A stretch of 64,000 nucleotides of DNA, from contig NZ_CP058215.1 in the NCBI RefSeq assembly GCF_013388255.1, positions 1,178,001-1,242,000 on the forward strand. The letters run 5' to 3'. Under the pieces are notes generated by a model. It had not been told where the DNA came from. It saw nothing but the letters and a program-made list of their open reading frames with translations, and searched no databases. Shown here piece after piece: positions 29,895 through 52,381 of the stretch. This stretch comes from Methanolobus zinderi (GTDB lineage: Archaea; Halobacteriota; Methanosarcinia; Methanosarcinales; Methanosarcinaceae). Made by a program: the position numbers and the translations under genes. The stretch's first letter is position 1. Each line of letters begins with the position of its first letter.

Positions 29895-30680
29895 TTAAAT
29901 TTCGCTTATCAGAGTTGAATCTTTGAGGTAATGATCAAAGAGTTCCTTTCCCCATTTAATCGCATGGGGATTGCAACAAACAGCCTGTTTGTAATCGTAT
30001 GATCCGTCTTCTGTCAATAATCTCAGAATTATACAATCGTCATTGAGTGCAAACGAGAACAGTTTGATATCACTTTGATATAGGTAATATCTGACCCTGC
30101 CACTATCGATGAACCTCTTTACTCTTTCACTGTGTTCTTCCCTGAGCTTTTGATACAGCTCATTGGTGATGATTATATGTATATTCATATCGCTTTCAAT
30201 AAACTGAGATATAAGAGGTGGGATATCAGGATGGGTGAAAGTGAAAATAAAGTACAGATCCTTTGATGTGCTGCACATCTCAATGAAGTCCTTGTTTATC
30301 TCGTAAAGATTAACAAGACTGGGTTTCACTATGCTGCATGAGCTTAGTTCATGTATCCTTTCCAAGAGGAAAGGAGGACAAAAATCCATATTCCTTTTTC
30401 CCCAATAGTCAATATCAGTATCCAGGATGTCAACAGTACCCAGAAGTGGTTTCATTTTACTTACTATAAGCTTCCCGATGCTGGTTAATTCATAACTGTC
30501 TTCATAATGAATAACAAGATAACTGTTTTCAAGTATTTTTATTTGGGGAAGCAGTGCCTGTCTGTTTGTATTCAGATTTTTGAGCAACTCAGCTGTTTCA
30601 AGGGGGCCGTTTTGAAGCAGTAAGAGCATATTCTTTCTCTTTTCAGACCTGAACAAAACATCCAGCAACCGGGTATCCAT
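29895..30680 (-). CDS. DUF1724 (FilR1/Msr-type) transcription regulator
   Basis: A 261-residue regulator. An N-terminal winged helix (KRKNMLLLLQNGPLETAELL, then NTNRQALLPQIKILE) is followed by the DUF1724/FilR1 middle domain, with the family end AIKWGKELFDHYL. In Methanosarcina, Msr proteins with this layout control methyltransferase genes. There is no methyltransferase in the window, so its target is unknown. A second copy with the same layout lies at 50756-51535. It stands alone and diverges from a 415-nt gene-free stretch. Confidence 0.88.
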   Translation of the reverse strand: MDTRLLDVLFRSEKRKNMLLLLQNGPLETAELLKNLNTNRQALLPQIKILENSYLVIHYEDSYELTSIGKLIVSKMKPLLGTVDILDTDIDYWGKRNMDFCPPFLLERIHELSSCSIVKPSLVNLYEINKDFIEMCSTSKDLYFIFTFTHPDIPPLISQFIESDMNIHIIITNELYQKLREEHSERVKRFIDSGRVRYYLYQSDIKLFSFALNDDCIILRLLTEDGSYDYKQAVCCNPHAIKWGKELFDHYLKDSTLISEI

Positions 30681-31095: not shown

Positions 31096-31455
31096 TTACA
31101 GAAAGCTTGCCACAGTTTCACTGAATTCATGAGTACTGAAAGGTTTTGCTATATATCCGGAACAACCAGCTTCAAGGAACTTTTCCTTATCTCCTGTCAT
31201 TGCATTGGCAGTCAGGGCAACCACCGGGATATCTTTTATCTTTTCCTTGTTTTTGATCAGTCCGAGCAATTCCAGCCCGTCCATGCCCGGTAACTGAATA
31301 TCCAGTAATATAAGGTCAAACTCTTTGTTCCCCAGCTGCTGGAGTGCCTGCTCTGCATTCATTGCCTTTGAAACCTCATATCCGTCATATTCAAGGAGAC
31401 ATACCGTAAGCTCCATGTTAATCGGACTATCCTCTACAACAAGTATACTCTTCAT
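31096..31455 (-). CDS. Stand-alone response regulator receiver protein
   Basis: A 119-residue CheY-like receiver without an output domain. The acidic pocket is VVEDS (Glu8, Asp9), the phospho-acceptor is Asp52 in LILLDIQLPGMDG, and the conserved lysine is in YIAKPFS. Its ATG overlaps the stop of the sensor kinase gene (31452-31455), so the two form one two-component unit, and the kinase is its probable phosphate donor. Without an output domain it should act by protein contact. Confidence 0.95.
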   Translation of the reverse strand: MKSILVVEDSPINMELTVCLLEYDGYEVSKAMNAEQALQQLGNKEFDLILLDIQLPGMDGLELLGLIKNKEKIKDIPVVALTANAMTGDKEKFLEAGCSGYIAKPFSTHEFSETVASFL

Positions 31456-34400
31456 AAGATCTCACTATCCATGCTTACTTTTTCCTCACATGTAGTATCT
31501 GCTATTGTAAATGTGAAAGTGCTTCCTGTCCCCTCTTCACTTTCAACATTTATCTCACCCTCATGCATTTCAACAAACTGTTTAACCAGAGTAAGTCCCA
31601 GGCCTGTGCCTCCATGCTTTCTTTTATTCGATGAATCAACTTGGGTGAACGGATCGAATATATCACTAAGCCTGTGCTCAGGTATACCTATTCCGGAATC
31701 TGTGATCGATACAGAGACTTTTTTATCGATTCTTTCTGCAGCAACAAAAACTTCACCGTTCTCGGGTGTAAACTTGATGGCATTGCTTAGAAGATTGTAC
31801 ATGATCTGCTTGAACTTAACCCGGTCTGCAAATATATCATCAGTGGTAATATTGTTCTCTATCTTAAGATCTACATTCTTCCTCATTGCCATTGGAGTCA
31901 TCAGTGTCCTGATCTCTTCAAACATTGCTGATACTGAGAAATATTCGCATTCAAGCTTCATCTTTCCGGCTTCGACCTTCGAGAGATCGAGAATGTCATT
32001 GATCAACTCAAGAAGATGCTCGCCGCTTTTGTTAATATGATCTATGAACCGATATTGTTTTTCATTCAGATCTCCTGCCATTTTAGTATTCAGCATATCC
32101 GAAAACCCTATAATAGCTGTAAGGGGTGTGCGAAGTTCATGGCTCATGTTTGCCAGGAATTCTGATTTTATCCTGCTGTTCTCCTCAGCCATCATCTTTG
32201 CTTCAATGAGTGAATGCTCTGCTTTTTTCTTCTCAGTTATATCGCTTGCAAAAACAAGATTGGTATTTTCTGGAAGCCGGGTAGCATCACATTTCAGCCA
32301 GCGCTTTGTTCCATTCTTTTTTCTGAATATCACTTCACTTGAACTGAAGCCGTTTTCTTTGAGTTCCCTGAATATCTTCTTTGAGCGGTGAAGGAATTCC
32401 GGCTCAACCATTTCAGTAAGCTTAGCTCCAACTAACTCTTTTTCCGAGTAACCCGTAAGGATAGAAGCTGTTCTGTTAACCTCCATACAGTTTCCTGTTT
32501 CATCAACAATAAAAATGCCATGTGGGGCATTTTCAATATAGCTTCTGAATTTTCTTTCACCCTCTCTTAATGCGTTATCTGCCTTTTTACGATCACTTAT
32601 ATCATGATAGTTCAACAAGATTCCTTTTATGGAAGGTTCATGAAGGAGGTTTCTGGCAGTAAATTCTATCCACTTATACGTACCATCTTTACACAGATAC
32701 CTTGTCTCAGCAGTTATTTCAATATCTGTTTCCTCTGTTAAATTCCGCACTACTTCTTGTGCTTTTTTCAGATCTTCCGGGTGAATGTTCTGCCAGGTGG
32801 ATATGCCCACGACTTCTTCAGGTTTCCATCCGAACCATTTCTCAATATTGGGACTTTTATATCTGTTAATTCCATTTTCATCTATTATGGCAATAACATC
32901 TGAAATATTCGCTATCATGGCGCTGAGCTTTGCTTCACTTTCACGAAGTGCCTTTTCAGCCTCTTTGCGCTTGCTTATGTCACGGACCATTGCCAGTATC
33001 AGTTTCTCGTTTCCGAAATAAACACAACTTGTAGTAAGTTCAATGGGATAGATGGTGCCGTTTTTATGGAAGTGCTTTGCTTCCAGTGTTACAGGTTCTC
33101 CGGGAGACCACCGGGACCATTGTTGCAATATATCATCTTTATCAAATTCCTCTGGTAGGAAACTAAGTACATTCATGCCCAATAGTTCTTCTCTGGAATA
33201 TCCGGACTGCACAACCGCTTCATCATTTACATCAAGTATATTTCCTTCCAGATCATGCAGATAGATTCCCTCTGCTGACTGATTGAATAATGATCGGTAT
33301 TTCCTTTCACTTTCCCGAAGTTCTTCCTCTGCCTGTTTCTGAGAGGTGATGTCCCAGTTTGTGCCGATCATTCTCAAAGACTTCCCGGATTCGTCACGTT
33401 GGACAACAGCAAGGGCGCGAATATTGCGAACGTTTCCGTCAGGCCAGAGAACACGGAATTCAGTATCGAATTCTTTCTCGCCGCTTAGTGCCATCTGTAT
33501 CTCGGAATCACATCTTTCAAGGTCACCCGGATGTAGCCCTGATCTCCAGGCTTCATAAGCACCACTGAATTGATCCTGATTTATGCCATAAAGGCGGAAC
33601 ATCTGTTCATCCCAGACAAGAGTGTTATTTACAATATCATAATCCCAGATCCCCACACCTCCTGCTCTTGTTGCTAATGCAAGCCTGTCACTGGCTTGTT
33701 TCAGGGCTTCTTCTGTTTTTTTTCTTTCTGTAATATCCCTGAATTCTACAACTCTGACCTCTTTTCCTTTATACGGGATATTCTTTGCTTCAAGTTGTAA
33801 AGGATACTCCGTACCGTCTTTGCGAAGACCTGTGACCGTATAAGCTTTTTCGAAACCCGAAAGTATATTGTGCATAACTGTGTCGCGTGAACTTTCGGCT
33901 ATTAGCAGCAAACCATCCATTCCGATAAGCTCGTTCATTGTATAACCGGATATGTCTGAAAGTCCCTGATTACAATCCAGAATGATTCCTTTGTCATGAA
34001 TCGCAATTCCGCCAAATGACGCATTGTGCAATCTTCTGAAGCGCTCTTCACTCTCCTTTAGTTCGTTTTTGGCTTTCTGGCGCAAAATACTCTCGCCTAT
34101 GCCGTCAGCGACAATCCTGAGGAGATTTATATCATCTTCATGCCACTGACGTGCTTGTTCACAGTCATCAAAACCTATGAAGCCCCAGAGTTCCTGTCCT
34201 GTGTAAATTGGAATGATAAGTACCGAAAGAATTCCCTGTTCCGAAAGGATTGTCCTTTCCGGCCCATCAAGTTCGGCCACGATATGTACATAAGCCTGTT
34301 TTACCTGCAGAGTTGCAAGAAGTGTCGGTGATCCCTCGCTGTAGGGGAGGTGTTTGAGAAGAGGATTATCTATTTCCCTGGAAATTCCGTCTGCTACAAC

Positions 34401-34859
34401 TTCATGGGTCTGTGACATACAGATTCCCAGATCGGGGTCATCTTCATTCCGGAAGATATAGGACCTGCTGCTACCGACAGTCCGGTGGATTGTTTCCAGG
34501 ATATTCGGGATTACATCATCAACATCATTTGTCTCAAGCAAAATGCGCATGCAATCAACAGTTGCAAGTTCATAGTCCAGTCTTCTTTTTAGTTCCCTTT
34601 CAGTTTCAACAAGAGCTTCTTGAGATTCATCCAGTGCTTTTACACGGGGCTTGAAATATACTAAAAAAAGGGCTCCTGTGAAAAGAATAAAAGCCCAACC
34701 TTTGTATGTTTGCAGTCGGCTGTATGTTTCCATATCGGAAACGAATTGAATTAAGATACTGTCGGAGAAGAGAACCCAGATGCTGGCCAGAACTATGTAT
34801 ATGACTATAAATTTCAATACAATTTTAGTACCTCTGTCAAAAACAGAAGTTGAATCCAT
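31452..34859 (-). CDS. Membrane-anchored sensor histidine kinase with GAF and five PAS domains
   Basis: The product has 1135 residues. Two N-terminal membrane helices (about 12-35 and 50-66) enclose a short outer loop. A GAF domain (about 100-260) follows, then five PAS/PAC units to about residue 890, each closed by a DITxxK-type linker. The HisKA motif MSHELRTP holds the phospho-acceptor His near residue 908, and the ATPase has N, G1 (DSGIG) and G2 (GGTGLGL) boxes. The input signal is unknown; several PAS units may bind cofactors. It is translationally coupled to the receiver gene at 31096-31455. Confidence 0.94.
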   Translation of the reverse strand: MDSTSVFDRGTKIVLKFIVIYIVLASIWVLFSDSILIQFVSDMETYSRLQTYKGWAFILFTGALFLVYFKPRVKALDESQEALVETERELKRRLDYELATVDCMRILLETNDVDDVIPNILETIHRTVGSSRSYIFRNEDDPDLGICMSQTHEVVADGISREIDNPLLKHLPYSEGSPTLLATLQVKQAYVHIVAELDGPERTILSEQGILSVLIIPIYTGQELWGFIGFDDCEQARQWHEDDINLLRIVADGIGESILRQKAKNELKESEERFRRLHNASFGGIAIHDKGIILDCNQGLSDISGYTMNELIGMDGLLLIAESSRDTVMHNILSGFEKAYTVTGLRKDGTEYPLQLEAKNIPYKGKEVRVVEFRDITERKKTEEALKQASDRLALATRAGGVGIWDYDIVNNTLVWDEQMFRLYGINQDQFSGAYEAWRSGLHPGDLERCDSEIQMALSGEKEFDTEFRVLWPDGNVRNIRALAVVQRDESGKSLRMIGTNWDITSQKQAEEELRESERKYRSLFNQSAEGIYLHDLEGNILDVNDEAVVQSGYSREELLGMNVLSFLPEEFDKDDILQQWSRWSPGEPVTLEAKHFHKNGTIYPIELTTSCVYFGNEKLILAMVRDISKRKEAEKALRESEAKLSAMIANISDVIAIIDENGINRYKSPNIEKWFGWKPEEVVGISTWQNIHPEDLKKAQEVVRNLTEETDIEITAETRYLCKDGTYKWIEFTARNLLHEPSIKGILLNYHDISDRKKADNALREGERKFRSYIENAPHGIFIVDETGNCMEVNRTASILTGYSEKELVGAKLTEMVEPEFLHRSKKIFRELKENGFSSSEVIFRKKNGTKRWLKCDATRLPENTNLVFASDITEKKKAEHSLIEAKMMAEENSRIKSEFLANMSHELRTPLTAIIGFSDMLNTKMAGDLNEKQYRFIDHINKSGEHLLELINDILDLSKVEAGKMKLECEYFSVSAMFEEIRTLMTPMAMRKNVDLKIENNITTDDIFADRVKFKQIMYNLLSNAIKFTPENGEVFVAAERIDKKVSVSITDSGIGIPEHRLSDIFDPFTQVDSSNKRKHGGTGLGLTLVKQFVEMHEGEINVESEEGTGSTFTFTIADTTCEEKVSMDSEIL

Positions 34860-35029
34860 CGTTTAATCCTCTCCGGTCACCCGTTTTCTAAAAACAATCT
34901 TTCATCCTTTTTTAGAATCAATTGTTCATTTTATCTGATGTATCTTATCTTTTATAAAATATCTTATCTAAAACACCTAATTTTGGTTTTACACATTGTA
35001 AAACTTAAATTGCTGATTCTCACACAATT

Positions 35030-35083
35030 AATATATAACTAAATATTATATTATTATCCAGAACCATCGAATGAGGAATAAGT
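35030..35083 (+). promoter_or_regulatory. Promoter and start region of the first peptidase gene
   Basis: The TATA-like AATATATAAC lies about 50 bases before the GTG start. The stretch ATGAGGAATAAGTGTG has GAGG as ribosome site. The corresponding regions of the second and third genes have the same plan. Confidence 0.55.
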
Positions 35084-38000
35084 GTGAAAACGATACTGAA
35101 GTTAAGTCTCTTTGTGCTTGCATCAATTTGCATATTAATAAGCACCCCATCCTTTGCATTGGCAGAGGATTATGAAAATGACAGTTATTTGAGCAATGAC
35201 AACTTCAGCAATGTTTCACCTGATAACCAGTTCTCTACGGTCCCCATAAACCCTGCATTTATCGAATATCAGAAAGAACTTGAAGAAAACAGCGAAAAGC
35301 AGTCAAATGTGGATAATCGATTCAGTATTAACACCTTTGAGACAGATTTCGATAATCATTTTCCTCCTGAAATTTCAAACGATATGCAGGACATTCAGTC
35401 CCCGGAAGGAATAATTCATCCATCCGGCCTTAAGCCATCGCCTATAGATTTTTCCTACATTTCTCCGGTGGATATGAAAGAATTACTTACCAGCGATGAG
35501 TATGGCGATATGCCATCCTCGATGTCAATGAGTACTCTTCTTGAGGAGTCCTATTCTACCCAATATGATCTGCGGGAGAAAGGTGGTGTGACAGGAGTAC
35601 GTGATCAGGCATTTGCAGGAACTTGCTGGGCACATGCATCATTGGCTTCACTGGAATCATATCTGATGCATAACAGGTCCGAAGAATGGGATTTTTCTGA
35701 AAATCACGTTAAGAATGCACTGGTATCATCCTACCAGGATGGTTTTGATCGCCCGACTCACGATGACGGTGGAAATGACCTTATGACACTCGCATATCTT
35801 GCAAGATGGGATGGTCCTGTTACCGAGTCCGATGATCCCTATGATGACCTGTCACCTGTTTCATCCTCTGACACGGTTGTTGCAAAACATGTTCAGGAAG
35901 CACTGATGCTTCCGATGGTAAATCATTCAGATGATCTGTTCAAATGGGCAATAACAAACTATGGTGCCATTACGGTTGCCATGCATGATGATAGTTCCAG
36001 ATATTTCAACAAAGAGAACAATACATATTATTGCTATGAAGAAGGCAAACCTTTGACTCACGCAGTATGTCTGGCTGGCTGGGACGACAATTTTGACAGG
36101 AACAGGTTCACTCCGGCAGCGCCGGGTGATGGAGCATACATAATCAAGAATTCTTGGGGTGACAACTGGGGTGATGCCGGATACTTCTATATTTCATACT
36201 ACGATACGGCACTGGGTACTTCCAATAATATGGAAGGCGATGGTGGTCAGAATGTATATACCACAAATTTCGTGATCACTGCTGAGAATGTCAGCAACTA
36301 TGATCGCATCTACCAGTACGATCCACTGGGCTGGTGTTCAAACCTGGGCTATAACAACAGCACTGTCACAGGAGCAAATATCTTCACGGCAGAATCAAAT
36401 GAAACCCTGGAAGCTGTAAGTTTCTATACAGTTGATTCTAATTCATTCTACAATATCTCAATCTATCTTGACCCCGAAAATGGTCCGATCACCGTTTCCG
36501 GTCCTGTATCAGTAAAGAACGGAAGCATGCCACTGGCAGGCTACCATACTGTGGATCTTGATACCAATGTGTCGCTCTCGGAAGGCCAGAATTTCTCGGT
36601 AGTAATAGCTTTCACAACTCCCGCTTATAATTATCCACTAGCTATCGAAAAAGCTATATCCGGACATAGCAGCAATGCCCATGCCGAAAAAGGACAAAGT
36701 TATCTAAGAGTCAATGAAACCACATGGGAAGATATTTCGCAAAACGGTACGAATGTATGTATCAAAGCTTTCACAAAAGAAGATAAAGAGCCTGAATCAA
36801 GATTCGTAGCTGATAAAAGGTACGTCCATGTGAACGAACCTGTTAATTTCCATGATGCAAGTCTTTTCTCACCGGAGTCATGGGAATGGGATTTCGGGGA
36901 TAATTCCACATCAACAGAACAGGATCCTTCTCATTTCTATACCAGTACAGGAATCTACAACGTTTCTCTGAATGCATCAAATGAATTTGGTAGCAATAGT
37001 AAAAAACGGACTTCCTTCATTCAGGTGCTGAATACCACGATCAATGTCAACAGCAGCGGGAATGCAGACTTTACAAACATCCAGGATGCCATTGTTGCAG
37101 CATCTGAAGGTGATACCATCATCGTTGAACCGGGGACATATACCGAGAGGCTTAGTTTCAGGAAGGATAATCTAACTCTCAGATCATCTACAGGCAATCC
37201 TGCGGATGTAAAGATAATTTCTTCAAATCCTGATGATACTGATAAGCTTAACTTTGCAGTCTTTATAATGGGGGATAATGTCACATTTCAGGGTGTTACG
37301 GTTTCAGGAGGTTACTATGGTATACTTCTTCAGCTATCGAATAATTGCAGTATTAACGATTGCATGCTAACTAACAATTATTTGAGCGGGCTGTTCATTG
37401 GTGGTTCATATAACAACAGTATTCTAAATTGCACTACCTATAACAATACAGCAGGTGGATTATACCTCACGGATTCAGCTAATAATTATTTCGCAAACAA
37501 TTCAATGTTCGGGAATAGTGTTAACTGCGTGCTGATTTCACAAAAAGACATCATAGATATCAGTAATACGGTTGAAGGTAAGCCTATTTACTATCTTTCG
37601 GGCTTATCGGACATGGTGATAGATAAGGATTCCAATGCCGGATTGGTTCATCTTATCGATTGCTCGAATATCACGGTAAAAGATATCGAAGTGGAAAAGA
37701 ACTACTATGGTACATATCTTTACAATACTAGCAATAGCACTATCAAAAACAGCACATATAGTAAAAACTTCCGTGGTATTTATCTGGATTATTCCACAAA
37801 CAACACGGTTTCAAACTGTACTTCAGACAGTAATAGAAATTACGGTATTGCACTGATCGAATCCAGCTATAATCTCATCTATAACAATTATTTCAATAAT
37901 ACTGATAATGTCCTGATCTCAGGCATTCTCTCCAATCAATGGAACATTTCGATGACTTCAGGTACTAATATCATTGGTGGAGACTATATTGGAGGTAATT

Positions 38001-38869
38001 ACTGGGCAAAACCTGACGGCACTGGCTGGAGCCAGGTTAACCCTTCAACAGGGGATGGGTTCTGCGAGCCTTACACTTTGACTGCTTGTAATATTGACAA
38101 TCTCCCACTAACAACTAATGATGAAATATCTTTGGCTGACGGAAACAATGCAAATGATAATTCTGGCAGTCAGAGTGAGAATGACGGAGTAAACATTCGA
38201 AAAAGTAATCCGGTACTCTACGGTGCTAATGTCGTTTCAGTAGTTTCGGATATGCAGTTTATCGGCAAGGAATCTGAAGTGAATTATGAATTCACTGATA
38301 AGGAAAATCCCGTTACTCATATACGTCTTCAGGCAAAGACAACTGAAGGATATGTAGTTGCAGATGTAAGCAGGCTGGATGGTCCTCACAAAGGTCTTTC
38401 CGAACAACCCTCCGGTAAGGTCTACCAGAATCTGGAAATCACTCTTGGAGATGAATCACTTTCATTCTCAGATTTCATAGATGAAGCTGTAATAGGTTTC
38501 AACGTACCGATAAAGTGGATCGAGTATAATGGTATTGATGCGGATACAATTCGCCTGGAGCACTATTCTGAAGGAAGATGGGAAACACTTCCGACCACAA
38601 AGGTAGATGAAGCTGATGGAATATTTTACTTTGAGGCTGTAACAACCGGCTTCTCGCCATTTTCCATCTGTGCCGATACGGTTTCAAACAGTAATGAAAA
38701 AATAGAAGTATCCCTGTCAGGTGACGATGATATAAATAGCAAAAATGAAGGTAGTGGATCTAACAGTGAAAGCAAGAAAATCGGAATGAATTCTTTCATG
38801 TTCATGCTTTTTATGCTGTTCATCATTGCAGTTTTTGCATATGTTAAGTATCAGAAGCGGGATAGATGA
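35084..38869 (+). CDS. Surface papain-like peptidase with lectin-like, PKD, beta-helix and PGF-pre-PGF domains (copy 1)
   Basis: The product has 1261 residues. A signal peptide (to about 27) and a prodomain-like segment with PSPIDFSYISPVDM lead to a C1 peptidase (about 155-385) with catalytic Cys181 (AGTCWAHA), His326 and Asn356 (IIKNSWGDNWG). A lectin-like domain of the type often paired with archaeal C1 peptidases (about 400-565) follows, then PKD (about 575-650, WEWDFGDNST), a NosD-type parallel beta helix (about 655-1010), a PGF-pre-PGF domain (about 1065-1205), and a C-terminal helix with basic tail. There are many NxS/T sequons. It should be a cell-surface protease or adhesin. The start is GTG. 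Confidence 0.9.
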   Translation: MKTILKLSLFVLASICILISTPSFALAEDYENDSYLSNDNFSNVSPDNQFSTVPINPAFIEYQKELEENSEKQSNVDNRFSINTFETDFDNHFPPEISNDMQDIQSPEGIIHPSGLKPSPIDFSYISPVDMKELLTSDEYGDMPSSMSMSTLLEESYSTQYDLREKGGVTGVRDQAFAGTCWAHASLASLESYLMHNRSEEWDFSENHVKNALVSSYQDGFDRPTHDDGGNDLMTLAYLARWDGPVTESDDPYDDLSPVSSSDTVVAKHVQEALMLPMVNHSDDLFKWAITNYGAITVAMHDDSSRYFNKENNTYYCYEEGKPLTHAVCLAGWDDNFDRNRFTPAAPGDGAYIIKNSWGDNWGDAGYFYISYYDTALGTSNNMEGDGGQNVYTTNFVITAENVSNYDRIYQYDPLGWCSNLGYNNSTVTGANIFTAESNETLEAVSFYTVDSNSFYNISIYLDPENGPITVSGPVSVKNGSMPLAGYHTVDLDTNVSLSEGQNFSVVIAFTTPAYNYPLAIEKAISGHSSNAHAEKGQSYLRVNETTWEDISQNGTNVCIKAFTKEDKEPESRFVADKRYVHVNEPVNFHDASLFSPESWEWDFGDNSTSTEQDPSHFYTSTGIYNVSLNASNEFGSNSKKRTSFIQVLNTTINVNSSGNADFTNIQDAIVAASEGDTIIVEPGTYTERLSFRKDNLTLRSSTGNPADVKIISSNPDDTDKLNFAVFIMGDNVTFQGVTVSGGYYGILLQLSNNCSINDCMLTNNYLSGLFIGGSYNNSILNCTTYNNTAGGLYLTDSANNYFANNSMFGNSVNCVLISQKDIIDISNTVEGKPIYYLSGLSDMVIDKDSNAGLVHLIDCSNITVKDIEVEKNYYGTYLYNTSNSTIKNSTYSKNFRGIYLDYSTNNTVSNCTSDSNRNYGIALIESSYNLIYNNYFNNTDNVLISGILSNQWNISMTSGTNIIGGDYIGGNYWAKPDGTGWSQVNPSTGDGFCEPYTLTACNIDNLPLTTNDEISLADGNNANDNSGSQSENDGVNIRKSNPVLYGANVVSVVSDMQFIGKESEVNYEFTDKENPVTHIRLQAKTTEGYVVADVSRLDGPHKGLSEQPSGKVYQNLEITLGDESLSFSDFIDEAVIGFNVPIKWIEYNGIDADTIRLEHYSEGRWETLPTTKVDEADGIFYFEAVTTGFSPFSICADTVSNSNEKIEVSLSGDDDINSKNEGSGSNSESKKIGMNSFMFMLFMLFIIAVFAYVKYQKRDR

Positions 38870-38957
38870 ACAACTATCCCTTTTTCAGTTTTGGATAGAA
38901 AATCACTGGTAACTCTAGTTAAAAAACTTAATCAGTAGCGAGTTTTATGCAAAATCT

Positions 38958-39008
38958 AATTATATAATCTAGTTTTATATAATGTATGTTGCATCAATGA
39001 GGGATACA
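38958..39008 (+). promoter_or_regulatory. Promoter and start region of the second peptidase gene
   Basis: The TATA-like AATTATATAATC lies about 45 bases before GTG at 39009. ATGAGGGATACAGTG offers either an ATG start at 38997 or GAGGG as ribosome site for the GTG. Confidence 0.55.
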
Positions 39009-42000
39009 GTGAAAACGTTGTTGAAGTTGACAGTTTTTATGTTCGTGGCATTTTTTTTCATTTTAATGAATACTGCAACTTGTATGGCACAGCCTGATTC
39101 AGGAGATGAGTTGCTTGCAGTAACTAACTCAGATGTCAACTCCAGCAAAGATCAATCATCTCCTCAATTTTTTATTGCACCCGTTAATCCTGCATTCGTT
39201 GAGTACCAGAAAGAACTTGAAGAGAGTCAGGGTGAACAATCTTCCGAAAATAGGCAATTGAATACTTTGTCCTACGACGTTCTTAATAAATCTATCAATC
39301 ATGAAGATCAGGTACTATCGAATAATGCCAGCGTTCTGCTTGATCCACAGATTGCGGATGATCCGACTTATAAATCGGGTCTCCAGCCTTCTCCAATAGA
39401 TTTTTCCTATTTGTCTCCTGTTGACATTGATCAGTTACTGGCTGACGAAAATTATCCCATGGCATTTTCCACAGCAGGTATTGAACCAGCCGCTGAAACT
39501 TTCCCTTCACGCTTTGACCTTCGCGAACAGGGTGGTGTGACAGGAGTACGTGATCAGGCATTTGCAGGAACTTGTTGGGCACATGGCTCCCTTGGTTCAT
39601 TGGAATCATACCTCCTATATAGTAATTCAGAGAACTGGGATTTTTCTGAAAATCACATGAAGAATACATTGGTATCTTCCTATCAGGATGGTTTTGATCA
39701 GTCCTCTCCTGATGAAGGTGGCACCTCTCTGAAAGCGCTCGCATATTTTGCAAGGTGGGACGGCCCGGTCACCGAGTCCGATGATCCTTACAACGATCTG
39801 TCACCCGCTTCATCCTCTGACGTGGTCGTTGCAAAACATGTTCAGGAAACCTTAATACTTCCTTCTTTGAATCAATCGTTTGATCTCTATAAGTGGATAA
39901 TAATGAACTATGGAGCTGTTTCAATAGCCATGTATGAGGACGACGATCACTTTTATAACGAAGAAAACAGCACTTACTATTTTTATGAAGAAAGTCTACC
40001 ATTGACACATGGTATAACGCTGGTTGGCTGGGATGATGATTTTGACAGGAACAGGTTCACTCCGGCAGCTCCGGGAGATGGAGCATACATAATCAAGAAT
40101 TCCTGGGGGGATAACTGGGGAGAAGAAGGTTATTTCTATATTTCATATTATGATACATCGGTAGGTATCACTGAATTTAAAAATAAAAAGTCATATGCAC
40201 CGATGAGTAATTTCCTGTTCACGGCAGAAAACATCAGCAACTATGATCATATCTATCAGTATGATCCGCTTGGATGGAGTTCAAACATTGGAATAGGCAC
40301 CAACACAGTAATAGGAGCCAATATCTTCACAGCAGAATCAGACGAAACGCTTGAAGCTGTGAGTTTCTATACAACTGACTCCAACTCTTTCTACAACATT
40401 TCTATCTACCTGGATCCAGAAGATGGTCCGATCAATACTTCCGGTCCTGTAAGTGTGAAAAATGGAAGCGAAGCTTTTGCAGGATATCACACCGTAAACC
40501 TTGATACTGATATTTCACTTTCTGCCGGCCAGAATTTTTCCGTTGTTATCTTTTTCACAACACCTGAGTACACTTATCCTGTTGCAATTGAATCTCCACT
40601 ATCAGGCTATAGTAGTATCAATATACGTTCTGAACCTGGTCAGAGTTATGCCAGTGCTGATGGTGTGGAATGGACAGACCTGTCACTATATAATTCAAAT
40701 GTATGTATCAAAGCCTTTACCACAGAGGATAGAGGACCCGAAGCAGGTTTTGTTGCTGACAAGAGGTATGTCCATGTGAATGAACCCGTTAATTTCCATG
40801 ATGCAAGTCTTTTCTCGCCCGAATCATGGGAATGGGATTTCGGAAACAATTCCACGTCAACTGAACAGAATCCTTCACACACCTATTCCAGTACGGGAAT
40901 ATACAATGTTTCTCTGAATACATCAAATGAATTTGGCAGTAATGTCACAACAAGAAGTTCCTTTATCCAGGTACTGAATACAACGATCACTGTAAACAGC
41001 AGCGGAAATGCTGACTTCACGCACATTCAGGATGCCATTGTTGCAGCATCTGAAGGTGATACTATAATTGTTGAACCTGGAACATATACCGAAAGGCTCA
41101 GTTTCAGGAAAGATAATCTCACTCTCAGGTCATCCACAGGCAATCCTGCAGATGTAAATATAATTTCCTCAAACCCTGACAAAAATGATCCTTCCAACTT
41201 TGCTGTCTTTATGATGGCAGATAATATTACTCTCCAGGGTGTTACGGTTTCAGGCGGTTACTATGGGGTATTTCCCCAGCTATCGAATAATTGTAGTATC
41301 ATCGATTGCAGGATGGTCAATAATTCTTTATCCGGTTTGTTCATTTATGATTCATACAATAACACTATTCTAAATTGCACTATGGATAACAACACAGCCG
41401 GATTATACATATCAGATTCAGCTAATAATTATTTCGTAAACAATTCAATGTTTGGGAATATACGTAACTGCGCACTGATTTCACATAAAGATATTATTGA
41501 TACCAGTAACACAGTTGAAGGCAAACCTATTTACTACCTTTCGGGAGTATCGGATGTGGTAATAGATCGGGATTCGAACGCCGGACTGGTGCACCTTGCT
41601 GATTGTTCAAATATTACAGTAAAAGATATCGACGTGGAAAAAAACTTCTATGGTATATATCTCCACAATACTAGCAATAGTAAGATCATAAACAGTACGT
41701 CTTCTAAAAACATCCGTGGTGTTCATCTGGAGTATTCCACAAACAATACAGTCTTCAATTGTTCTTTAGAAAACAGTTCTAGCTACGGAATCTCACTTAC
41801 TGAAAGTAATGATAACCTAATCTATAACAATTATTTCAATAGTGATGATAACGTTCTGATCTCAGGCACTCTCTCCAATCGGTGGAACATTCCAGTGACT
41901 CCGGGTCGCAATATAATTGGTGGAGATTACATTGGAGGTAATTACTGGGCAAAACCAGACGGAACCGGCTGGAGCCAGGTAAATTCTTCTATTGGCGATG

Positions 42001-42815
42001 GGTTCTGTCATCCTTATAATTTAAGTGCTGACGGCTCTAACACTGATCACCTTCCACTTACACTTAATACTGATCCGCTTTCAGGTAGCGAGAACAATGC
42101 TAATGTTGACTCTGTCAGCCAGGGTGATGGTGAAGGAGTAAACATCCGCAGGACCACTCTCGCTTTTTACGATAGCAATATCATCTCAGTAGAATCTGAT
42201 ATGAGATTTATTGGTCAGGGTACTGAAGTGAACTATGAGTTCAATGAAAAAGAAAATCCAGTCACACATATACGTTTTCAGGCGAAGACAACTGAAGGAT
42301 ATGTAGTAGCGGATGTAAGCAGACTGGATGGTCCTCATGAAGGTACTTACAGCCAGCCTTCAGGTCATGTATATCAGAATCTGGAGATTACTTTGGGAGA
42401 TACGGGTCTTGGATCATCCGGTTTCATGGATGAGGCTGTAATTGGTTTCAATGTTCCCGGAGACTGGATGGAGTCAAATAACATCGATGAGAGCACTATT
42501 CGTCTGGAACATTATACAAACGATAGATGGGAAAAGCTTTCAACCGAAAAGGTCCGTGAAAGTGATGGGCTACTTTATTTCGAAGCTGTAACAAAAGGTT
42601 TTTCGCCATTTGCTATTTGTGCAGATACAGTTGAAATGAGTGATGAAATAGACGTATCCCTGTCCGGTGACAATGGCCTGAAACCCCAAAGTGAAGATAA
42701 AGAAATCAAAAACGGCAGCAGATATGGTAATATTTATGCTTTGTCGTTCCTGCTATTTATTGTGTTCATCTCTTCGGTTCTAATCTATCGCCGATACAGA
42801 AAACAGGATGAATGA
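38997..42815 (+). CDS. Surface papain-like peptidase with lectin-like, PKD, beta-helix and PGF-pre-PGF domains (copy 2)
   Basis: The domain order is that of copy 1: signal peptide, PVNPAFVEYQ and PSPIDFSYLSPVD in the prodomain, C1 peptidase with intact AGTCWAHG, a His in LTHGITLVGWDDD and IIKNSWGDNWG, lectin-like domain, PKD (WEWDFGNNST), beta helix, PGF-pre-PGF domain, C-terminal helix and basic tail. Nucleotide identity with copy 1 is nearly complete over some blocks (peptidase core, PKD start), which points to recent duplication or gene conversion. The ATG at 38997 or the GTG at 39009 is the start; the frame also opens at 38982. Confidence 0.9.
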   Translation: MRDTVKTLLKLTVFMFVAFFFILMNTATCMAQPDSGDELLAVTNSDVNSSKDQSSPQFFIAPVNPAFVEYQKELEESQGEQSSENRQLNTLSYDVLNKSINHEDQVLSNNASVLLDPQIADDPTYKSGLQPSPIDFSYLSPVDIDQLLADENYPMAFSTAGIEPAAETFPSRFDLREQGGVTGVRDQAFAGTCWAHGSLGSLESYLLYSNSENWDFSENHMKNTLVSSYQDGFDQSSPDEGGTSLKALAYFARWDGPVTESDDPYNDLSPASSSDVVVAKHVQETLILPSLNQSFDLYKWIIMNYGAVSIAMYEDDDHFYNEENSTYYFYEESLPLTHGITLVGWDDDFDRNRFTPAAPGDGAYIIKNSWGDNWGEEGYFYISYYDTSVGITEFKNKKSYAPMSNFLFTAENISNYDHIYQYDPLGWSSNIGIGTNTVIGANIFTAESDETLEAVSFYTTDSNSFYNISIYLDPEDGPINTSGPVSVKNGSEAFAGYHTVNLDTDISLSAGQNFSVVIFFTTPEYTYPVAIESPLSGYSSINIRSEPGQSYASADGVEWTDLSLYNSNVCIKAFTTEDRGPEAGFVADKRYVHVNEPVNFHDASLFSPESWEWDFGNNSTSTEQNPSHTYSSTGIYNVSLNTSNEFGSNVTTRSSFIQVLNTTITVNSSGNADFTHIQDAIVAASEGDTIIVEPGTYTERLSFRKDNLTLRSSTGNPADVNIISSNPDKNDPSNFAVFMMADNITLQGVTVSGGYYGVFPQLSNNCSIIDCRMVNNSLSGLFIYDSYNNTILNCTMDNNTAGLYISDSANNYFVNNSMFGNIRNCALISHKDIIDTSNTVEGKPIYYLSGVSDVVIDRDSNAGLVHLADCSNITVKDIDVEKNFYGIYLHNTSNSKIINSTSSKNIRGVHLEYSTNNTVFNCSLENSSSYGISLTESNDNLIYNNYFNSDDNVLISGTLSNRWNIPVTPGRNIIGGDYIGGNYWAKPDGTGWSQVNSSIGDGFCHPYNLSADGSNTDHLPLTLNTDPLSGSENNANVDSVSQGDGEGVNIRRTTLAFYDSNIISVESDMRFIGQGTEVNYEFNEKENPVTHIRFQAKTTEGYVVADVSRLDGPHEGTYSQPSGHVYQNLEITLGDTGLGSSGFMDEAVIGFNVPGDWMESNNIDESTIRLEHYTNDRWEKLSTEKVRESDGLLYFEAVTKGFSPFAICADTVEMSDEIDVSLSGDNGLKPQSEDKEIKNGSRYGNIYALSFLLFIVFISSVLIYRRYRKQDE

Positions 42816-42909
42816 GTTAAGGATTTTATTTCGGTTTTTTGATAAAAGCTAAATTCTTACAATTTTTATTCGCAGTTGGTTCATGAAAAAGAAGATGTCA
42901 TTCGGAATT

Positions 42910-42962
42910 AAAAATATATAATTTGATATTATATTATCTATGTTCTGTTAATGAGGGATTAT
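42910..42962 (+). promoter_or_regulatory. Promoter and start region of the third peptidase gene
   Basis: The TATA-like AAAATATATAATTT lies about 46 bases before GTG at 42963. ATGAGGGATTATGTG again allows ATG (42951) or GTG with GAGGG as ribosome site. Confidence 0.55.
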
Positions 42963-45900
42963 GTGAAAACGGTATTGAAATTTAATTGTTTTTTACTAAT
43001 AGTCATCTGTTTAATTCTGATTGCTACTCCATCAGTTATAGCACAATCAGTTCCAGCAGATGAAGAGATTACAGGTGCTGGTTCAGATATCAACCTCAGT
43101 ACAGACCCTTCGGAACTACAATTGCATGCTGCACCCCTCAATTCTGCTTTTATTGAATATCAGAACGAACTTAAAGAAGATCAGCCTGAACAATTGTACT
43201 CATTTTCACATAACCTTACTCCTGAATCTGTCGATCATGAAGAGTGGGCACTACTGACCAATAATAATAGCCTTTATGAAGTTCAGATATCAGACGATAA
43301 TGTATATCCTTCGGGACTTCATCCCTCTCCTGTAGACCTTTCCTATCTCTCTCCCGTCAATATGGAAGAATTACTGGCAGATGGGAAATATGGCGATATG
43401 CCTTCTTCAATGGCAATAAGTACTCTTTCAGAGGAAATCTATCCTTCCCGGTATGATCTGAGGGACGAGGGAACTGTCACGGAAGTAAAGTTTCAGGGAA
43501 CCGCCGGTAGTTGCTGGGCTCATGCATCGCTTGCTTCACTTGAATCATTCCTGCTAAGAAAGAATTCTGAGTACCGGGACTTTTCCGAGAACAATCTTAA
43601 AAACAGGTTAGTGATCTATGAACCGGATGGTTTTGACCGTATCTCTCATGATGCATGGGGAGCCAGTCTTCCGGCTGTTGCATATCTTGCCAGATGGGAT
43701 GGTCCGGTTACCGAGTCAGATGATCCCTACAACGATATATCACCCATTTCATCCTCTGAGGCTGTTGTAGCGAAACACGTTCAGGAAGTCTTAATCCTGC
43801 CGGATCTAAATCACTCTGATGACCTTTTCAAATGGGCGATAAGCAACTATGGTGCAATTACAGTAGCCATGCACGAAGATAGTGATTTTTTAAACAAAGA
43901 TAATAATACATATTATTGCTACGAAGAGGATGTAGAACGAAACCATGCTGTAAGTCTTGTTGGCTGGGATGATGATTTTGACAGGAACAGTTTTACTCCT
44001 GATGCACCGGGAGACGGTGCATACATAATCAAGAATTCCTGGAGTGATAACTGGGGTGAAGATGGATACTTCTATATCTCCTATTATGATTCAATTCTGG
44101 GAAATAACGGTGCTCTTTACAGCAATGGTCCATATTTGATGAATACTGTGATCACTGCAGAAAATGTCAGCAACTATGACAATATCTACCAGTACGACCC
44201 TTTTGGATGGTGTCTCAACTACGGTTATGGTTATGGCTATACTACAGCAACAGCAGCCAATATTTTCAAAGCAGCATCGAATGAAACCCTTGAAGCTGTA
44301 AGTTTCTATACAGTTGATTCAAATTCATTTTACAATATCTCAATCTACCTTGATCCTGAAAATGGTCCGATCAATTTTTCCGGTCCGGTGTCAGTGAAGA
44401 ACGGAAGTATGCCAATAGCGGGTTATCACACTGTGGATCTTGATACCAATTTTTCACTCTCAACAGGTCAGAATTTTTCGGTTGTCATCACTTTCACAAC
44501 ACCGGAATATGACTATCCTGTAGCAGTTGAAACTAATATTCCCACTTATAGCAGCAATGCATATGCAGAGGCAGGAGAAAGCTATCTCAGCTTTGATGGA
44601 ATCACATGGACAGATGTTTCTGAACAAGGTATGAATATATGCATTAAGGCTTTCACAAAAGAAGATAAAGAGCCTGAAGCAAGCTTTGTTGCAGGCAAAA
44701 GGTATGTTCATGTGGACGATCCGATTTATTTTTATGATGCGAGTCGTTTCTCACCTGACTTCTGGCAATGGGATTTCGGGGATAATTCCACATCAACAGT
44801 ACAGCATCCTTCCCACTCCTATGCAGAACCGGGGTTATACAATGTTTCCCTGAATGCATCAAATGGCTTTGGTAACAATATTACAACAAGAAAATCATTC
44901 ATCCAGGTGTTGAATACCACGATCACAGTCAACAGTAGCGGAAATGCTGATTTTACTACTATTCGGGATGCTCTGACTGCAGCTTCGGAAGGAGATTCTA
45001 TAATAGTCGAACCCGGGACCTACTATGAGCAGCTAAGGATCGCCAAGGACAATATCACTCTCAGGTCATCCACAAATAATCCTGCAGATGTAAGGATTAT
45101 ATCTTCAAACTCTAACCACACTGAGAAAGAGAATTATGCAGTCTATTTAACGGCAGATAATGTAACTTTCCAGGGTTTTACGGTTTCAGGTGCTTATCGA
45201 GGTATCTATCTTTCTGATTCAAACGAGTGTAATATAAGTGACAGCATGGTTTCAGGCTGTTACCAGGGAATGAGATTATCCAATTCGAATCTGTGCAATA
45301 TAAGTAACAGCAGTTTTTCCGGTTGCTATGTAGGGATACATCTCTCTGATTCTGAAGATTGTAGCATTATTGACTGCATTACGGATAATAACCTTTACAC
45401 CGGCCTGTACATTTATGAATCGTTTAACAACAGTATTCTGAATTGTACAATCGAGGACAATACAGATTATGGTTTGCAGTTGTGGTATTCGGAGAACAAC
45501 AGTTTTGCGAACAATTCAATTTCAGGAAGCATCTATAATTGCCTGCTCTATTCACATAACAATGTTATCGATACCAGCAATACTGTGGAAGGTAAGCCGA
45601 TTTATTATCTCTCTGGAGTATCAGACATCGTTATAGATAGGGATTCGAATGCCGGATTGGTGCATCTCATCGATTGCTCTAATATCACGGTAAAAGATAC
45701 CGAAATTCAAAATAACTTCTACGGCATCCATTTTTACAATACTACTAAAAGTACTATCGCAAACTGTACGCTAAGTACCAATGCAGATGCCATCTATCTT
45801 TTTGCTTCACACAACAATACAATATACAATTCCACACTAGCCAATAGTATCCACTACGGAATTTCATTAAGAGAAAGTAATGATAACCTTATTTATAACA

Positions 45901-46886
45901 ACCTTTTGAACAGCAGCCATAATTTCAAAATCTCAGGTATTCTGCACAATCAATGGAATATCTCAGTGACGTCAGGAACCAATATCATTGGTGGAGATTA
46001 TATTGGTGGTAATTACTGGGCAAAACCCAACGGAACCGGGTGGAGTCAGGTCAATACTTCTATTGGCGATGGATTCTGTCTGCCTTATAATTTGAGTGCT
46101 GACGGCTCTAACATCGATTATCTTCCGTTAACATCTAATGCTGAATTACCGTCGAGTAGTGAAAATTCGGGTACAGTAGATATTGATGAGGATGATGGTG
46201 TACATTTAAGAAGAAACAACTACAAACTAGCCGAAGCAAATATTGTTTTGAAAGATTCTGATATACGGTTTGTAAGTAGGGACACTGAAGTAAGATATGA
46301 ATTCACCGATGAGGCCAATCCGGTAAACCAGATACGCTTTGAGGCAAAGACCACAGAAGGCTATGTAGTGGCTGATGTGAGCAAACTGGATAGTCCTCAT
46401 GAAGGTCTCTCCGGAAAACCCTCAGGTGAGGTCTACCAGAATCTTGAGATTACAGTCGGTGATGAGAAACTCGGATCATCGGATTTCATGGAAGAGGCTG
46501 TAATAGGTTTTAGTGTATCGATAGAGTGGATCGAGTCGCATGATATTGATGTTGATACGATTCGCCTGGAACACTATTCTGGTGATATGTGGGAAAAATT
46601 ACCCACAACTAAGGTCGGTGAAGATACTGGCAGAATGTATTTCGAATCAAAGACGACATCTTTCTCACCTTTTGCAATCTGTGCTGATACAACTGCTATG
46701 CCAGATGAAACATCTATGGAACTGTCATTTACCGAAGGTGCCGATTCGAAGACAATACCGGATAAAGGAGATAAATATCCCTTCGGAACTCACACAAAGG
46801 ATAACTACCGACTGCTTCCAGTCTTTGTATTCATTGTACTTGCGTTATCGTTACTTGTCTATTATCGGCATAAAAAAAATAGTTAA
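42951..46886 (+). CDS. Surface papain-like peptidase with lectin-like, PKD, beta-helix and PGF-pre-PGF domains (copy 3)
   Basis: The product has 1311 residues and is the most diverged copy. The peptidase is still complete (FQGTAGSCWAHA, RNHAVSLVGWDDD, IIKNSWSDNWG). The lectin-like domain, PKD (WQWDFGDNST), a longer beta helix with additional NISDS/NISNS-type coils, the PGF-pre-PGF domain and a C-terminal helix with tail HKKNS follow. Some blocks in the lectin-like region are closer to copy 1 than copy 2 is, so the family looks mosaic. Each copy has its own promoter. Role as a surface protease or adhesin is inferred. Confidence 0.9.
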   Translation: MRDYVKTVLKFNCFLLIVICLILIATPSVIAQSVPADEEITGAGSDINLSTDPSELQLHAAPLNSAFIEYQNELKEDQPEQLYSFSHNLTPESVDHEEWALLTNNNSLYEVQISDDNVYPSGLHPSPVDLSYLSPVNMEELLADGKYGDMPSSMAISTLSEEIYPSRYDLRDEGTVTEVKFQGTAGSCWAHASLASLESFLLRKNSEYRDFSENNLKNRLVIYEPDGFDRISHDAWGASLPAVAYLARWDGPVTESDDPYNDISPISSSEAVVAKHVQEVLILPDLNHSDDLFKWAISNYGAITVAMHEDSDFLNKDNNTYYCYEEDVERNHAVSLVGWDDDFDRNSFTPDAPGDGAYIIKNSWSDNWGEDGYFYISYYDSILGNNGALYSNGPYLMNTVITAENVSNYDNIYQYDPFGWCLNYGYGYGYTTATAANIFKAASNETLEAVSFYTVDSNSFYNISIYLDPENGPINFSGPVSVKNGSMPIAGYHTVDLDTNFSLSTGQNFSVVITFTTPEYDYPVAVETNIPTYSSNAYAEAGESYLSFDGITWTDVSEQGMNICIKAFTKEDKEPEASFVAGKRYVHVDDPIYFYDASRFSPDFWQWDFGDNSTSTVQHPSHSYAEPGLYNVSLNASNGFGNNITTRKSFIQVLNTTITVNSSGNADFTTIRDALTAASEGDSIIVEPGTYYEQLRIAKDNITLRSSTNNPADVRIISSNSNHTEKENYAVYLTADNVTFQGFTVSGAYRGIYLSDSNECNISDSMVSGCYQGMRLSNSNLCNISNSSFSGCYVGIHLSDSEDCSIIDCITDNNLYTGLYIYESFNNSILNCTIEDNTDYGLQLWYSENNSFANNSISGSIYNCLLYSHNNVIDTSNTVEGKPIYYLSGVSDIVIDRDSNAGLVHLIDCSNITVKDTEIQNNFYGIHFYNTTKSTIANCTLSTNADAIYLFASHNNTIYNSTLANSIHYGISLRESNDNLIYNNLLNSSHNFKISGILHNQWNISVTSGTNIIGGDYIGGNYWAKPNGTGWSQVNTSIGDGFCLPYNLSADGSNIDYLPLTSNAELPSSSENSGTVDIDEDDGVHLRRNNYKLAEANIVLKDSDIRFVSRDTEVRYEFTDEANPVNQIRFEAKTTEGYVVADVSKLDSPHEGLSGKPSGEVYQNLEITVGDEKLGSSDFMEEAVIGFSVSIEWIESHDIDVDTIRLEHYSGDMWEKLPTTKVGEDTGRMYFESKTTSFSPFAICADTTAMPDETSMELSFTEGADSKTIPDKGDKYPFGTHTKDNYRLLPVFVFIVLALSLLVYYRHKKNS

Positions 46887-50755: not shown

Positions 50756-51535
50756 ATGCCGTTGCTTGAAACATTTGGTATATCGGAAGACAAGATCAAT
50801 TTACTTCTGCTATTGTATGATGGCCCGAAGAAAAAGAAAACTATACTTGAAACGCTGAATATAAGCAGCCAGGCACTTGTTCCCTCAATAAAGGTACTTG
50901 AAAGCAACAATATAGTTGTACACTATGATGGCACATATGAACTTTCATCCATCGGGAAAATAGCGGTTGATGAAATAATTCCCTTCCTGGATACACTGGA
51001 ATTTCTAGAGAACAATCTGGACTATCTTGCTGAACACAGGCTTGATTTCATTCCTTTCCATCTACTGAAGAGACTCCGGGAGCTGTGTCCCTACACTATA
51101 GTACGTCCCCACTTCTCAGAAGCTTTTGAATTCAACAAGAAACTTGAAGAAACCACAGATGCTTCTAAGACCTTCAGGATTGCCACATCCCTTTTACTTC
51201 CGACTCTCCCCTCTTTTTTTGCAAAATGGATCGATGAAGGAATAGATATATCGGTGATAGTTTCCGAAGAGCTGCTTGAAAAGATAAGAAACGAGCATGT
51301 ATTTATTTTTCAGGATTTGCTGACAAAAAGGCAGATCGAACTTATGGTATTCCCGGGAAACATGTGCTTCCAGACATTTGTACTGAATGACTATTGTTTT
51401 TCGTGTAACCTTTTAAACAAAAAAGGTTCTATCTCCGGTGAACAGCTGATAAGCTGTAATACTGAAGCCTTAAAATGGGGAAACGAGCTTTTTGAACACT
51501 ATAGAGAATGCTCTTTGCCAGTGATAACTATTTGA
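50756..51535 (+). CDS. DUF1724 (FilR1/Msr-type) transcription regulator, second copy
   Basis: A 259-residue regulator with an N-terminal winged helix (KINLLLLLYDGPKKKKTIL, SSQALVPSIKVLESNNIV) and the DUF1724/FilR1 domain ending ALKWGNELFEHYRECS. It aligns over its length with the regulator at 29895-30680. AGGGGG lies about 10-15 bases before the ATG, and a TATAAATAG box about 110 bases before it gives a long leader. In Methanosarcina this group controls methyltransferase genes; the target here is unknown. The 39-residue zinc-finger gene follows by 110 nt. Confidence 0.88.
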   Translation: MPLLETFGISEDKINLLLLLYDGPKKKKTILETLNISSQALVPSIKVLESNNIVVHYDGTYELSSIGKIAVDEIIPFLDTLEFLENNLDYLAEHRLDFIPFHLLKRLRELCPYTIVRPHFSEAFEFNKKLEETTDASKTFRIATSLLLPTLPSFFAKWIDEGIDISVIVSEELLEKIRNEHVFIFQDLLTKRQIELMVFPGNMCFQTFVLNDYCFSCNLLNKKGSISGEQLISCNTEALKWGNELFEHYRECSLPVITI

Positions 51536-51910: not shown

Positions 51911-52381
51911 ATGATATATAAGCGTATTTTGCTATTTCTTTTGGTAATGATAATAGCAGTAGCTGGAATACAGACAGTATCAGCAACTGGCGATATGATG
52001 GATGAGTTCAATCAGGAATATGACACCAATGCAACCAGGCTGGACAACTGCACCGTCTGCCATGGAGAGAGTATTGAATCACTGAATCCATATGGTATGG
52101 ATTATCAGGAGAACGATGCTGATCTGATGGCTGTGGAACCTCTGGATTCTGATGAGGATGGATTCAGCAACCAGGAAGAGATAGATGCTCTGACATTCCC
52201 TGGAGATCCGGAAGATATGCCGGAGAGTGTAGCTGAAGAGGAGGAAAGTGTAGTCGAGGAAACACCGGATGAGGAGGAACCTGTGAATGATACAGGTACC
52301 GATCAGCAGACACCGGGATTTGAAGCTATCCTTGGAGTTGCCGGTTTGCTCATGGCAATATTCCTGCTTAAGAAAAAATAG
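51911..52381 (+). CDS. Surface c-type haem protein with PGF-CTERM anchor
   Basis: A 156-residue protein. It has a signal peptide (cleavage near residue 25) and a single CxxCH haem c motif (Cys47, Cys50, His51 in NCTVCHGES). A calcium-type loop DSDEDGFSNQEEI follows at about residues 80-92, then a Glu-rich acidic linker. The C-terminus TPGFEAILG, hydrophobic helix and KKK is a PGF-CTERM signal for archaeosortase processing. A haem exposed at the cell surface and fixed to the membrane lipid fits extracellular electron transfer. That role is inference. A rho-independent-like hairpin follows the stop. Confidence 0.82.
   Translation: MIYKRILLFLLVMIIAVAGIQTVSATGDMMDEFNQEYDTNATRLDNCTVCHGESIESLNPYGMDYQENDADLMAVEPLDSDEDGFSNQEEIDALTFPGDPEDMPESVAEEEESVVEETPDEEEPVNDTGTDQQTPGFEAILGVAGLLMAIFLLKKK

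Follow-up and report, generated by a model that had tools for sequence, protein, structure and literature searches.

The DNA analysed here, referred to as the window, is a stretch of 64,000 nucleotides (positions 1,178,001-1,242,000) on the single 2.70 Mb chromosome of Methanolobus zinderi. It carries three tandem, intact ORFs of 3.8-3.9 kb each on the plus strand, which we call copies 1, 2 and 3 (Table 1). A previous sequence-only reading had described three such genes with a common six-part architecture and intact Cys/His/Asn triads, and profile matches bear this description out. In every copy, a signal and pro region are followed, in identical order, by a C1A peptidase domain (PF00112), a lectin-like domain (PF18560), a PKD domain, a NosD beta-helix and a PGF-pre-PGF domain, after which come a predicted C-terminal transmembrane (TM) helix and a short basic tail. 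The PF00112 matches have E-values of 4e-23, 3e-26 and 6e-25 in copies 1, 2 and 3 (83-94 bits, with a cut-off of 20.7), and the lectin-like domain, which is of the Cwp84 type, is matched over its full length directly after the peptidase in all three (E 6e-50 to 3e-52). The catalytic Gln is present together with the triad: Q175, C181, H326 and N356 in copy 1; Q192, C198, H343 and N373 in copy 2 (numbered from 38982); and Q182, C188, H332 and N362 in copy 3. No further C1 peptidases were found in the genome at E <= 0.001.

The beta-helix has a confident predicted model that matches pectate-lyase-type folds in the PDB, and the PGF-pre-PGF domain is beta-rich in its predicted model. Each copy contains 34-38 N-X-S/T sequons, compared with about 20-22 in shuffled sequences (maximum 32-33), an excess that fits a glycosylated surface protein. 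The genome encodes archaeosortase A and S-layer (PF07752) genes. However, although the copies have the PGF-pre-PGF domain, no match to PF18204 (PGF-CTERM) was found in them, and attachment by the TM helix is therefore a prediction. Near the array, a 156-residue protein with a PGF-CTERM motif is a likely archaeosortase substrate.

Table 1. Positions of features in the window (position 1 is its first nucleotide)
Feature	Position	Strand	Remark
FilR1-type regulator	29895-30680	-	near array
PAS/GAF sensor histidine kinase	31452-34859	-	divergent from array
TATATAA box, copy 1	35032-35038	+	-52 from GTG
Copy 1	35084-38869	+	1261 aa; likely GTG start at 35084
Crossover point counterpart in copy 1	35525-35528	+	estimated; M. 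halotolerans fused gene is copy-1-like before alignment column 160 and copy-3-like after
S2-pocket loop, copy 1	36215-36259	+	GTSNNMEGDGGQNVY; copy-specific
Terminator-like hairpin, then TTTTT	38859-38880	+	across copy 1 stop codon; weak
TATATAA box, copy 2	38961-38967	+	-48 from GTG 39009
In-frame ATGs, copy 2	38997, 38982	+	upstream of preferred GTG 39009
Copy 2	39009-42815	+	about 1270 residues; likely GTG start at 39009; architecture as copy 1
Peptidase domain, copy 2	39500-40200	+	see text
S2-pocket loop, copy 2	40164-40202	+	GITEFKNKKSYAP; copy-specific
Region of copy 2 replaced by copy-1-like sequence in the UBA118 ortholog	41313-41600	+	gene-conversion tract in relative
TATATAA box, copy 3	42915-42921	+	-48 from GTG 42963
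In-frame ATG, copy 3	42951	+	upstream of GTG 42963
Copy 3	42963-46886	+	about 1310 residues; likely GTG start at 42963; architecture as copy 1, with ~44 extra beta-helix codons
Crossover point counterpart in copy 3	about 43413	+	estimated
S2-pocket loop, copy 3	44100-44135	+	GNNGALYSNGPY; M. halotolerans fused gene has the identical loop
Extra beta-helix coils, copy 3	near 45200-45330	+	alignment codons ~777-820
FilR1-type regulator	50756-51535	+	near array
Protein with PGF-CTERM motif	51911-52381	+	156 aa

Of 112 genomes in the GTDB family Methanosarcinaceae, 61 encode at least one lectin-like domain. Single genes are common in the genus, and most family members are single, about 500-3500 residues long and with other C-terminal parts. 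Tandem pairs 3.7-3.9 kb apart are found in G008, G009, G014, G022, G071, G074 and G079, and in several Methanolobus the pairs lie at another locus. Apart from the window's species, Methanolobus sp. UBA118 alone among the genomes compared has a triple array, and there it is in pieces. The genus-level relatives of the window are Methanolobus: UBA118 is the 98% match, and further ones are M. halotolerans, M. psychrotolerans, M. bombayensis and M. vulcani. Two homologs, Soudan_27 (L057:11402-15121) and Soudan_28 (L058:8381-12218), are each split into two ORFs and are apparently broken or misassembled.

Common to all three copies is ATGAGG, which precedes the GTG, followed by GTGAAAACG, and this element makes GTG starts with a GAGG ribosome site likely. 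Ahead of each start lies a TATATAA box, in agreement with the TATA-like boxes that had been noted before; simulated sequence of matching dinucleotide make-up contains such a box within the interval with a probability of 0.015-0.022 for each gene, and both UBA118 and M. halotolerans have retained the boxes. A hairpin followed by TTTTT spans the stop codon of copy 1, which is weak evidence, as 9 such sites were found with 6.8 expected. A scan for sigma-70 promoters was uninformative here (41 sites, 40.8 expected). Together, the boxes and the hairpin make separate promoters likely, and it is plausible that the three copies are transcribed separately. An operon or a phase switch was considered but not favoured: each copy has a TATA box of its own and an intact ORF, and the sequences give no sign of switching. 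The histidine kinase encoded divergently from the array and the two FilR1-type proteins nearby could possibly be its regulators.

The clearest view of the history of the array comes from M. halotolerans SY-01. Its locus (L054) has the same flanks as the window, with the histidine kinase before and the permease after, and contains one gene, the sole copy in that genome. The first ~150 alignment codons of this gene match copy 1 (81-91%) and the remainder matches copy 3 (74-96%). Informative sites favour copy 1 by 148:28 before the breakpoint and copy 3 by 685:205 after it (P<=1e-5). Correspondingly, the pro region groups with copy 1 in trees and every later part groups with copy 3, and the reverse groupings fail AU tests (p=4e-4 and p=3e-75). 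An assembly error at the junction is unlikely, since copies 1 and 3 of the window have no exact run longer than 14 bases in common around there. The 5′ end of the first copy is thus joined to the 3′ end of the last, which is what would be expected from an unequal crossover that loses the middle. Judged from these sequence patterns, the M. halotolerans gene is an unequal-crossover chimera with a copy-1-type pro region and a copy-3-type body. The permease gene beside it (L054:5830-6648) is an ORF of 272 residues, compared with 436 in the window.

The direction of this event could also be the reverse: the single gene of M. halotolerans would be ancestral, and the array in the window would have arisen by later duplication and import of divergent copies. 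This would agree with the abundance of single genes in the genus, and after duplication it is naturally at the outer ends of an array that the ancestral 5′ and 3′ ends survive. However, dS between copies 1 and 3 is 1.3 and only 0.57 between copy 3 and the M. halotolerans gene, so the copies predate the split from M. halotolerans, and plain duplication leaves the combination of a copy-1-like pro region with a copy-3-like body unexplained. We therefore regard an ancestral single gene as rather unlikely, and infer that the array collapsed in M. halotolerans.

What the encoded proteins do is suggested by their closest solved relatives, the structures 4d59 and 4ci7 of Cwp84, which match over 400 residues of peptidase and lectin-like domain (E 2e-50). 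Cwp84 of Clostridium difficile matures the S-layer precursor SlpA (PMC4089489). As in Cwp84 and Cwp13, a long pro region and a C1A peptidase precede the lectin-like domain. At the positions aligned with the catalytic Gln, Cys and His of Cwp84, the three copies have the same residues, and the side chains that correspond to its calcium ligands Glu448 and Asn487 and to its interdomain Gln338 (PMC4089489) are invariant. There are also differences. The three copies have the Asn that is canonical for papain (KNSW), whereas Cwp84 aligns with KSSW; and where Cwp84 has PF04122 wall-binding repeats, which have no match in the three copies, these have the PKD domain, beta-helix, PGF-pre-PGF domain and predicted TM anchor. 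The occurrence of C1A plus lectin-like proteins in archaea, e.g. Methanosarcina mazei NP_632235, has already been pointed out (PMC4089489). Such Methanosarcinaceae proteins have the two-domain core in common with the array, but are mostly single genes with other C-terminal parts.

The sequence-only reading had proposed a set of alternative surface proteases or adhesins. The proposal of surface proteases agrees with homology and predicted topology, i.e. the signal peptide, TM helix, sequon excess and Cwp84-like module; for alternatives in the sense of switching or condition-specific expression there is no evidence. Under the proposal of adhesins, the copies would be mainly adhesive or structural, and the peptidase domain would be a relic or would serve self-maturation only. 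The PKD, beta-helix and PGF-pre-PGF domains indeed fill over half of each protein, polysaccharide is a frequent ligand or substrate of beta-helix folds, and a lectin-like domain is carried as well. Nevertheless, the catalytic residues are intact in all three copies, and purifying selection between orthologs (dN/dS 0.19-0.28) is strong in the peptidase domains of copies 1 and 3 (0.09 and 0.08), which favours an enzyme. A mainly adhesive protein is thus unlikely, although adhesion may be a secondary role of these putative proteases. The peptidase domain of copy 2 has a dN/dS of 0.32.

The copies differ conspicuously in one loop of the peptidase domain. In a profile alignment that has a gap in this very loop, it aligns with Thr317-Asp320 of Cwp84, residues that belong to the S2 pocket, by which the P2 preference is set. 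(An AlphaFold model of the half from pro region to PKD domain had a mean pLDDT of 45 and was set aside.) Identity in the loop is 11% between copies, but 100% between copies 1 and 3 and their UBA118 counterparts and between copy 3 and the M. halotolerans gene. Since their S2-pocket loops differ, the copies probably cut different substrates, for which Cwp84 and Cwp13 offer a precedent: these too are paralogs, and they cut one S-layer precursor, SlpA, at different sites (PMC5842191). The loop of copy 2 is just 54% conserved between orthologs, and together with the dN/dS of its peptidase domain this may be read as a relaxed or changing enzyme.

Sequence exchange among the copies had been proposed earlier from blocks of "very high" nucleotide identity. 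This wording was too strong. Overall identity is 72% between copies 1 and 2, 69% between copies 1 and 3 and 68% between copies 2 and 3; the best windows of 90-120 bases reach 84-91%, and the longest exact runs, for the pairs in the same order, are 44, 33 and 32 bases. The block structure itself is real, however, as sliding-window comparison and a recombination test found the divergence to be non-uniform. Copies 1 and 2 are most alike in the PKD domain and beta-helix, and copies 1 and 3 in the lectin-like domain. The patterns cluster significantly when every polymorphic site is used (P=0.0005, the lowest value that the test can give), but only weakly on silent sites alone (P about 0.01-0.07 for copies 1 and 2, and 0.02 at best for copies 1 and 3). 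The window by itself would not prove conversion.

Stronger support for gene conversion or recombination than this original argument comes from the M. halotolerans chimera and from UBA118, a fragmentary MAG, 70% complete, in which contig ends interrupt copy 2. That copy 2 contains a copy-1-like tract of ~290 bases at alignment codons 821-918, in which sites favour copy 1 over its own ortholog by 43:10, and silent sites by 21:4 (P<=1e-5). The scan covered 14 ortholog/paralog comparisons, run once on all sites and once on silent sites, and the tract survives correction for that number. In a 60-codon window at 780, dS is 0.14 to copy 1 versus 0.70 to the ortholog; for the greater part of the gene, by contrast, it is 0.5-2 or saturated to copy 1 versus 0-0.6 to the ortholog. 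Weak silent-site clustering within the window and differences in dN/dS among domains could hint that region-specific selection or rates, not recombination, made the mosaic, but two findings render that explanation highly improbable: this inversion of dS, and the shift in tree position from the pro region to the body in M. halotolerans, where AU tests strongly reject the alternatives.

A further case is the tandem pair of M. vulcani B1d. In trees its two peptidase domains stay apart (AU p=4e-54), but its PGF-pre-PGF tails form a group, and a union of the b-copy tail with its counterpart in M. bombayensis is rejected (p=5e-5). With the M. halotolerans chimera, the UBA118 tract and this pair, recombination is recurrent in the family of C1A plus lectin-like proteases. 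As in known examples of gene conversion between prokaryotic paralogs (mtrA, PMC4632066; survey, PMC6053082), patches are closer between paralogs than between orthologs. Unlike in concerted evolution of the mtrA type, however, the patches are those of a large surface protein whose peptidase heads stay distinct. The protein family is already known and the array is an added member of it; for the swapping between copies we found no earlier report, as our literature search returned no study of this tandem family or of recombination among its copies.

Taken together, these observations are best explained, with a probability that we put at about 0.7, by a recombining array of surface-anchored C1A plus lectin-like proteases with diverging specificity. 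The proteins would be exported, probably made as zymogens, and anchored in the membrane, standing on a PKD/beta-helix stalk at the Methanolobus surface, where they may process or degrade envelope proteins, e.g. of the S-layer type, or proteins from outside. As a family of direct repeats, the genes would be homogenised in patches by conversion, mainly in stalk and tail, and unequal crossover could collapse the array into one fused gene. It is conceivable, though doubtful, that such arrays serve a recombination-driven renewal of protease specificity, in which the heads, with their copy-specific S2 loops, are maintained as distinct types, stalks and tails become alike, and an exchange of heads, pro regions and stalks between copies yields new fused proteases such as that of M. 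halotolerans. Surface proteases and envelope processing of methanogens are little studied. The tandem Cwp84-type module, the copy-specific S2 loops and the chimera in a sister species provide a concrete set of proteins for two questions, namely whether cysteine proteases serve archaea in S-layer processing and how recombination of paralogs shapes archaeal cell surfaces, and the array is a modest but good illustration of recombination among archaeal surface paralogs.

Two smaller observations concern individual copies. Identity to UBA118 (window 33900-37700 against L055) is mostly 97-100% over the first ~890 codons of copy 1 and the flank upstream of them, compared with mostly 92-96% in the surrounding DNA and 73-94% in the remainder of copy 1; this jump suggests a recent exchange between lineages or a replacement of the tail. 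The extra beta-helix codons of copy 3 amount to two coils, within which a DNA-level search found no repeats; they would lengthen the stalk of this copy relative to copies 1 and 2, and are also present in the M. halotolerans gene.
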